The notes under the pieces are model-generated. The model was given only the letters and a program-made list of their open reading frames with translations. It did no database searches and was not told the DNA's origin. This document shows positions 56,042 through 59,850 of a DNA stretch of 64,000 nt, one piece after another (the stretch's first letter is position 1; each line of letters begins with the position of its first letter). The translations under genes were made by a program, and so were the position numbers. The DNA is from an uncultured bacterium (GTDB lineage: Bacteria; Cyanobacteriota; Vampirovibrionia; Gastranaerophilales; Gastranaerophilaceae). Location: positions 1-64,000 of the forward strand of contig CASELF010000056.1 in NCBI GenBank assembly GCA_949288725.1, read 5' to 3'.

Positions 56042-56080
56042 AGAGGCGCTGACATTTATAAATGTCAGCGCCTCTTTTTA
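56042..56080 (+). terminator. Terminator of the TerC gene
   Basis: A near-perfect 15-bp stem starting AGAGGCGCTGACATT, a tight TATA-type loop, then TTTTTATTT. Confidence 0.95.
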
Positions 56081-56144
56081 TTTAGTCAATGTAATTAAAA
56101 TATATTCCTACTCATCCAAATAGAGGATATTTAAAGAGAACAAC

Positions 56145-56171
56145 TCAAGAAAAATCTTTTGATACCGATAA
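56145..56171 (+). promoter_or_regulatory. Sigma28-type promoter before the predicted small RNA
   Basis: TCAAGAAA (56145-56152), exactly 11 bp, ACCGATAA (56164-56171). Compared with the promoter at 57697 (TAAAGAAA-N11-GCCGATAT) and the FliA consensus it differs at one base per box. Confidence 0.6.
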
Positions 56172-56177
56172 ATAAAA

Positions 56178-56257
56178 TATAGATATGGAAAACGAAAGTT
56201 TTTCATACCTCCTCCCCAAGTCTGGTAGCCGTTCTTTTTTAAGACGGCTTTTTTTTA
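56178..56257 (+). ncRNA. Predicted small RNA, Yfr1-like architecture with anti-Shine-Dalgarno tract
   Basis: A transcript starting about 7 bases after the sigma28-type -10 box would have: a 7-bp hairpin with a GAAA tetraloop (56187-56204), an unpaired pyrimidine tract ACCTCCTCCCC (56207-56217) complementary to Shine-Dalgarno sequences, and a Rho-independent terminator (arms AGCCGT.CTT / AAGACGGCT, 56227-56249, then eight T). This order (hairpin, exposed CU-rich core, terminator hairpin) is that of cyanobacterial Yfr1, whose core is ACUCCUCACAC. No ORF is present. RNA existence and any relation to Yfr1 are inferences. Confidence 0.65.
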
Positions 56258-57696: not shown

Positions 57697-57723
57697 TAAA
57701 GAAACAGAAAAAAAAGCCGATAT
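57697..57723 (+). promoter_or_regulatory. Sigma28 (FliA)-type promoter of the 693-aa gene
   Basis: TAAAGAAA (57697-57704), exactly 11 bp, GCCGATAT (57716-57723). The predicted start near 57730 gives a leader of about 40 nt. Confidence 0.82.
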
Positions 57724-57768: not shown

Positions 57769-59850
57769 ATGGGATTGGCAGCATCACAAGCAAGATTGTT
57801 AACGATAACAGCTCGATTAGCAGATAACGAGTTGAGATCACAAACGATTAACAATGCTAAAATGCGTTTATCAACACAGAGTTCACAAGCAAGTGAAAAC
57901 TATGTAAACGCATTAAACAATGCTACTATGAAATTCACCAATTACGCACTAGACGGAGAGTCACAAACCCAAAACTTAACCTATAACGCTTTAACTGCAT
58001 ATAGTTCATATAACAATCAATATGGACTTGTAAATTCATCAGGACAACTTTTAGTAAGTGAATCAGAAGCATTACTATATGAAAAGTCAAATGGAAACCT
58101 TAATTCATACTTACAATATCACGGTTTGGAATACAAAACTACATACTATGATAATGTTGGCTCAATAACCAATGATGGTTACATTGAACCATTCAATCAT
58201 ATCTCAGTAGAAGATATGAAAACTTACTTTGAAGAATATAACAGTTATGAAAATTCTCAAGAAGTAGAAAAATATCAGAATGCATACAATACATATATTT
58301 CATCAACAAGCACATTACAAAATGTAGCAAAAACTGTAATGACATCATTTTTAACAGCAGGAACAAATCCTAATAAAATCGAAAAAACTAATGGTGCATT
58401 TACAATGCAATATGCATCAGGCAATTTAGTTGATATGTTGAATGAACTAAAAGGAGCATTTAACAACAGTAATAATACCTATGCTTTTAACAATCAAATA
58501 ATAAGTGATTTAGGACTTACAGAAGGTGATCCTTCAGCATTAACAACATACAACGAAATATTAAATTCAATAAATATAAATGCAGATGGAACCTATACCT
58601 CATCAGATGAAGGCACATTAACAGAAGTTGCAGATAACAGTGCCGGAGAAAACACTAAAGTATATCAACTTGATAACGTTAAAATATATGTAGACACAAC
58701 AAACGGAACAGTAACAAGTGTTTCTTTAACTGACGGTGAAAGTTCTGAGTTAACAGAATCCAAAACAGGAGTTTCACTGGCTGAATGTATAAATTCATTA
58801 AAAGTATCACATAAAAATGATGATGGAGCTGTTGATGAAGTAAACACTTATTCAGTAAAGGATTATTATGAAGATTCAGACATTCCTAAAACAATCAGTA
58901 TTAATAGTAGTATAACAGCACCAACAACACCTGAAGAATCTAAAGAAGTTGCAAATGAACTATTGAACGAAATCTTAAACAGTATGCTAAGTGATTTTAG
59001 TATTGGATTTGCAGAAGCATTATACAGCACAGAAAATCCTGATGCAGAAGCAAATAGAACATATTTTCAATCTTTAGGGTTTAATCTTTCAGATAAAGTT
59101 ACCGGAACAACCCAAACACTTGGACAATACTACACAGATTACAAAAAAGCAGAAAGTGTTTACTTAAATACAATCTTTTCAGCAGATTCTATAGACCATG
59201 TAAAACAAGACTTACTAAATGGTCATGCCTCAACATTTAAAGATGCTGATGGCAATCCTATAGAAATATCTTACAGAGATTTGACAGATGTAGATTTTGT
59301 TCTTCGATATATGGCAGCCGAAGGCTTAGATCCGTCTGAGACATTCTTAACAGTTATAAAAGACTTTGTTGTTGATAACATTATAGATGAATATGGAAGC
59401 CCAAAATATGCCTGGGTAGATTCAACAGATCCTGATAATACAGGTAATGCAGATGCAAAAGCACAATGGTACACCAACTTATTTAACAGAATGAAACAAG
59501 GATATAAAGCACTTGAAAACGGCTTAGCATCTTCTCCAGAATGGATAGAATACGCATTAGAAAGCGGAATTGTAACAATGGAACAAGTTGATAGTGAATA
59601 TCATTGGCAAGGTTTAGATTACAAAGCCTGCGCAAGAATAACCGAAGAAACAGATGATGCTGCAGTAGCAAAAGCCGAAGCAGAATATTCAAGAGCAATG
59701 AACGATATTGAAGCAAAAGATAATATCTACGACCTTGAATTGAAAAATATCGATACAGAACACACTTCACTACAAACAGAATATGATTCTATTAAAAATG
59801 TAATTTCTAAAAACATAGAAAGAACATTTAATTTCTACAAAAACGCATAA
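57769..59850 (+). CDS. MGLAASQ-family structural protein, 693 aa, sigma28-type promoter
   Basis: The protein begins MGLAASQARLLTITARLADN and ends with AEYSRAMNDIEAKDNIYDLE, then KNIDTEHTSLQTEYDS and ISKNIERTFNFYK. Both ends match the 601-aa protein at 5115, the middle hardly at all (here rich in Asn/Ser/Thr/Tyr/Glu, one Cys near residue 340 and one near 625). Both ends should be long helices able to pair. No signal peptide. GAAAGGA lies about 10 bp before the ATG. It is transcribed alone from a sigma28-type promoter. I know similar sequences only as unnamed proteins of gut bacteria; a filament or flagellum-linked role is inference. Confidence 0.75.
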   Translation: MGLAASQARLLTITARLADNELRSQTINNAKMRLSTQSSQASENYVNALNNATMKFTNYALDGESQTQNLTYNALTAYSSYNNQYGLVNSSGQLLVSESEALLYEKSNGNLNSYLQYHGLEYKTTYYDNVGSITNDGYIEPFNHISVEDMKTYFEEYNSYENSQEVEKYQNAYNTYISSTSTLQNVAKTVMTSFLTAGTNPNKIEKTNGAFTMQYASGNLVDMLNELKGAFNNSNNTYAFNNQIISDLGLTEGDPSALTTYNEILNSININADGTYTSSDEGTLTEVADNSAGENTKVYQLDNVKIYVDTTNGTVTSVSLTDGESSELTESKTGVSLAECINSLKVSHKNDDGAVDEVNTYSVKDYYEDSDIPKTISINSSITAPTTPEESKEVANELLNEILNSMLSDFSIGFAEALYSTENPDAEANRTYFQSLGFNLSDKVTGTTQTLGQYYTDYKKAESVYLNTIFSADSIDHVKQDLLNGHASTFKDADGNPIEISYRDLTDVDFVLRYMAAEGLDPSETFLTVIKDFVVDNIIDEYGSPKYAWVDSTDPDNTGNADAKAQWYTNLFNRMKQGYKALENGLASSPEWIEYALESGIVTMEQVDSEYHWQGLDYKACARITEETDDAAVAKAEAEYSRAMNDIEAKDNIYDLELKNIDTEHTSLQTEYDSIKNVISKNIERTFNFYKNA

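Follow-up and report, generated by a model that had tools for sequence, protein, structure and literature searches.

Does a short intergenic segment of the window (the whole 64,000-nucleotide stretch analysed) encode a regulatory RNA, what would drive its transcription and on what would it act? A preliminary description proposed a sigma28-linked small RNA (sRNA) with an exposed anti-Shine-Dalgarno (aSD) tract, possibly a Yfr1-like repressor of envelope genes. The promoter boxes, the GAAA-capped hairpin, the tract ACCTCCTCCCC and the terminator that it named are all found at the coordinates given for them, and recur together far beyond chance. They form what is, as read from the DNA, a single transcription unit (Table 1), and we have hardly any doubt that a conserved sRNA gene is present at this locus. 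The tract is followed by a conserved AAGTCTRGTAGCCG, which the preliminary description did not mention. A TTACAAA-like sequence occupies the position of the upstream element in several other families.

Table 1. Coordinates in the window of the sRNA locus and its surroundings
Feature	Coordinates	Strand	Remarks
Terminator hairpin after upstream terC/DUF475 gene	56042..56075	+	separate, perfect hairpin
Upstream element GAGGATATTT	56123..56132	+	most copies in the genus resemble GAGGATATTT or GATGAGATTT; read directly, unscored
-35 element TCAAGAAA	56145..56152	+	family consensus TAAAGTTT
-10 element ACCGATAA	56164..56171	+	family consensus GCCGATAA; 11-nt spacer to -35
Predicted sRNA transcript, about 80 nt	56177..56257	+	5' end inferred from promoter spacing
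5' hairpin, 10-bp stem	56184..56207	+	arms 56184-56193/56198-56207; GAAA loop 56194-56197
Anti-SD tract ACCTCCTCCCC	56207-56217	+	within core
Ultraconserved core ACCTCCTCCCCAAGTCTGGTAGCCG	56207..56231	+	includes anti-SD tract ACCTCCTCCCC
Intrinsic terminator AGCCGT...ACGGCT + T run	56227..56257	+	stem 56227-56249

The predicted transcript folds with an energy of -21.4, compared with -11.6 (sd 2.8) for shuffled sequences (z -3.5). Folding of the sequence 5' of the core has a median z of -4.5 over 109 distinct copies, in which the tract remains mostly unpaired, as the proposal of an exposed tract implied; 11 of these copies have no 5' structure. From a sequence alignment, RNAalifold retrieves no stem but that of the terminator, in which two pairs are changed on both sides. 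The 5' hairpin is therefore supported by the recurrence of stems that are unlike in sequence, and not by a formal covariation test.

With a 133-bp query, BLAST matches at E<=0.01 are obtained in 74 of 98 relatives, some of the weaker ones, from distant genomes, spanning only part of the query. A covariance model identifies the sRNA in 287 of the 382 genomes of the class, including nearly all of those in its own family. Hairpin, tract and terminator, whose conservation in close relatives had been put forward as a test, occur as a set with the promoter and the rest of the core, both in the closest 30 copies and in other families of the order. The hairpin sequence differs between families (a stem is retained), and a class-wide structure-aware model did not work because the stems cannot be aligned from one family to another. 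Two additional families of the class, f9 and f15, yielded loci when 20 chosen genomes were scanned. Read directly, these are arranged in the same way, with CCCCAACCTCCTCCCCAAGTCAYGCTACCG; the hairpin is new, as is the terminator stem (GCTACCG/CGGTAGC), and the core CCTCCTCCCCAAGTC is nearly unchanged in these divergent copies; two f9 genera carry CCTCCTCCCCAAATGATGGCGC in place of CCCCAACCTCCTCCCCAAGTCAYGCTACCG. In one f9 genome a lysine riboswitch (RF00168, 73.5 bits; L235:1810-2023) is found near the sRNA.

Most genomes of the window's family have one copy and some others have several, with six strong hits in G059. Three tandem copies occur 362 nt apart at L130:2989-3760, two of them with identical upstream sequence, and family f2 includes a paralogue type with the core TCTCTTCCCCAAGTCTGG and no 5' hairpin (L131, L133, L134, L135 and L136). 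The model scan gives no clear hit in G048, G246, G274 and G294, genomes scored as 93-99% complete. A weak hit in G048 (L232, E 0.027), a genome without a full copy, includes CTCAAATCTCCTCCCAAG and a terminator and is possibly a diverged relic; two other weak hits (L227 and L228) do not carry the core in full and seem to be due to chance. Among 386 genomes of the phylum, model R2 has weak matches (E 0.001-0.009) in seven outside the class. No viral copies with an exact pattern were found.

At gathering level, no Rfam family matches the RNA, whether that of the window or those of 20 relatives' loci; in further loci, none matches it at E<=1. The likeness to Yfr1 was to be checked with the corresponding Rfam covariance model (RF01116), which has no match in the window region even at E<=10, let alone at the gathering score, and none in the genomes of the class that were listed. 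Yfr1 itself is found in 61 of 146 genomes of the phylum, all outside the class, and model R2 does not match four Yfr1 loci. Identity with Yfr1 was rejected: its ultraconserved unpaired undecamer ACUCCUCACAC is absent and neither model matches the loci of the other. What stands of the earlier proposal is the plan. Yfr1 consists of a 5' stem-loop, an unpaired stretch of 16-20 nt and a 3' terminator (PMC2190773); the same parts are present here, with a conserved C/U-rich motif in a slightly longer stretch of about 19-25 nt. The two RNAs differ in motif (ACUCCUCACAC in Yfr1, ACCUCCUCCCCAAGUC here, in its own order and class), in the sigma28-type promoter of the present locus and in position, which is conserved for yfr1 in most genomes studied (PMC2190773) whereas the neighbours vary here. 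Descent of both from a common ancestral RNA, with a motif that has since diverged, is a question of origin and is compatible with the mechanism that we favour below. The shared plan (PMC2190773), the CUCCUC common to both, the lack of overlap among the genomes listed and envelope-type targets (Yfr1 in Nostoc represses wall and outer-membrane genes (PMC6974561); here there is a candidate target only) would all fit. We nevertheless consider it unlikely, given two models that do not recognise each other's loci and two different motifs, that of Yfr1 being a single perfectly conserved undecamer.

The best two-block site upstream of the RNA averages to TAAAGTTT-N11-GCCGATAA over 102 distinct copies, which is the enterobacterial FliA (sigma28) consensus. 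A score of at least 13 of 16 against it is reached by 46 of the 102 copies and by about 0.2% of shuffles. Of the 95 copies that score at least 10, 73 have a spacer of 11. All 98 relatives have a match to the FliA/WhiG family at E<=0.001, in 89 cases above the curated cut-off. Two features expected of a sigma28-dependent sRNA, this promoter match and a FliA-like sigma factor in the genome, are thus present. They bear out this part of the earlier proposal, and the promoter is very probably of the sigma28 type. Of 98 genomes, 33 have matches to the flagellin N-domain, several each in most f2-f7 genomes and in both f9 genomes tested; among the 98 genomes searched, none was found in the window's own genus with the exception of one genome. 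FliA and the promoter therefore persist where flagellin was not found.

Other sigma28-like sites were also seen. Those in a relative (G100) precede genes of the MG(M)AxxQAR type; the whole G100 genome includes 66 such sites compared with 62 in a reversed control, so that only the best intergenic ones are meaningful. The window has one such site (TAAAGAAA...GCCGATA, 57697-57722) upstream of a gene (57769-59850) for a 693-aa protein, MGLAASQARLL..., for which Pfam has no match; proteins like it are encoded downstream of sigma28-like sites in G100.

The reading that we consider probable is that of a trans-acting aSD sRNA under FliA control which represses by pairing with Shine-Dalgarno regions. 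The FliA (sigma28)-type promoter would give rise to an RNA of ~80 nt, in which the variable 5' hairpin and the 3' terminator hairpin would protect and display a mostly unpaired core, ACCUCCUCCCCAAGUCURGUAGCC. This core would pair with purine-rich translation-initiation regions (GGGGAGGA-type Shine-Dalgarno sites and their flanks) and so block ribosome binding. In the window's family one target would likely be a membrane-anchored class A beta-lactamase/DD-peptidase-like gene, and the sRNA would then lower the level of this envelope enzyme when FliA is active.

Target prediction was run on the leaders of G100, where, ranked by energy, the real core performs no better than shuffled cores. Across 98 genomes, leaders with TTGGGGAGG before the ATG do not, overall, outnumber those of a reversed control, and perfect 9-nt complements at this position show no overall enrichment. 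Among the loci read, one gene recurs with TTGGGGAGG as its Shine-Dalgarno site. It encodes a protein of about 380-410 aa that matches Beta-lactamase2 (PF13354, E 1.9e-58) and also Peptidase_S11, and is present in 85 of the 98 relatives; in the window's own genome its leader carries TTGGGGAGGA at -20 to -11. Complements to the core of at least 7 nt (7-12 nt) are found in 23 of 29 leaders of this gene in the genus (79%) but in 1 of 98 other leaders from the fetched loci (1%), and those of at least 9 nt in 12 of 29 (41%) and 0 of 98 (0%), counts that are not independent, since some of the related genomes searched for the pattern that led to the target also served to test it. Taken by itself, the 11-nt match of G100 is equalled by about 5% of shuffled cores. 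In the 20 genomes read from outside the genus, the complement measures 4-7 nt (GGGAGGA or TGGGGAG for some genera of the family and, for other families, usually no more than GGGAG), so that this target cannot explain conservation throughout the class. As the best candidate it agrees with the envelope genes proposed initially; we propose it tentatively, a little on the side of doubt. A search with two seed sequences did not find Hfq in G100.

G100 also includes 48 tracts (L251-L340) of C followed by G10 or G11, nearly always G10, that are able to pair fully with CCUCCUCCCC; many of them closely follow an ATG and precede type IV prepilin-like genes. Such tracts are rich in some genomes but scarce or missing in most sRNA carriers, and were rejected as a general target for this reason. 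In two of these genes of G100, C2:100994 and C2:476841, G11 fuses the frames, and the tract genes look like a phase-variable prepilin family.

The core could act instead as a decoy that binds a protein or the ribosome and titrates a factor rather than pairing with mRNA. Its ACCUCCU is identical to the usual 16S anti-SD tail, its near invariance extends beyond the aSD tract and no class of mRNA leader is enriched overall. The recurrence of complements in the leader of one gene throughout the genus points the other way, as does a related aSD sRNA that works by pairing (PMC10746234), and we regard a decoy as quite unlikely.

A hairpin followed by a terminator, together with a weak, sub-threshold PyrR match, might also suggest a cis-acting leader, an attenuator or a 3'-UTR fragment of a neighbouring gene. 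The RNA has its own promoter, and the upstream terC/DUF475 gene ends in its own terminator, so that the sRNA is a separate transcription unit. Flanking genes vary widely among genomes, on either strand, which argues for a stand-alone unit independent of any neighbouring gene, as for trans-encoded sRNAs and as first described; the copies in L130 are in tandem. A cis element is thus very improbable. The segment had also been described as having no ORF. An ATG at 56185 opens a frame to beyond the terminator; this start, with no Shine-Dalgarno site ahead of it, is missing in other families, the changes are indels in the hairpin loops and terminators, and third codon positions in the core are invariant, so that it is not a conserved ORF and a small protein gene can be dismissed.

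The host is, as proposed, a non-photosynthetic relative of the cyanobacteria. The module of sigma28 promoter and sRNA may go back to flagellated lineages of the class and have outlasted the loss of flagellin in this gut family, and may now tie FliA activity to envelope and peptidoglycan enzymes as a non-photosynthetic counterpart of Yfr1; we offer this as speculation that is unlikely to hold. The RNA would be a new family, missing from Rfam, and an independent example, within the same phylum, of the plan seen in Yfr1. The presence of a flagellar-type promoter in genomes where flagellin was not found makes the role of FliA there testable.

A literature search found no described sRNA for this lineage. 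NfeR1, of the alpha-r14 family, uses aSD motifs, CCUCCUCCC, to silence ntrB, and shares with the present RNA, as do related rhizobial aSD sRNAs, an identical CCUCCUCCC tract in an unpaired region and variable stems (PMC10746234). It differs in having three hairpins, each with the motif, where a single tract lies between two hairpins here, in belonging to another phylum and in being under LsrB/NtrC control rather than having a sigma28-type promoter. Regulatory RNAs controlled by sigma28, as predicted here, include UhpU, MotR, FliX and FlgO of E. coli and CJnc170/FlmR of Campylobacter (PMC10578931, PMC11187230). Those of E. coli are derived from UTRs, the sequences are unlike, and the RNA described here also occurs in genomes without flagellin found. 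The simplest reading is that it would be comparable to NfeR1 in its action and to Yfr1 in its plan and, by the features tested, a member of neither family.
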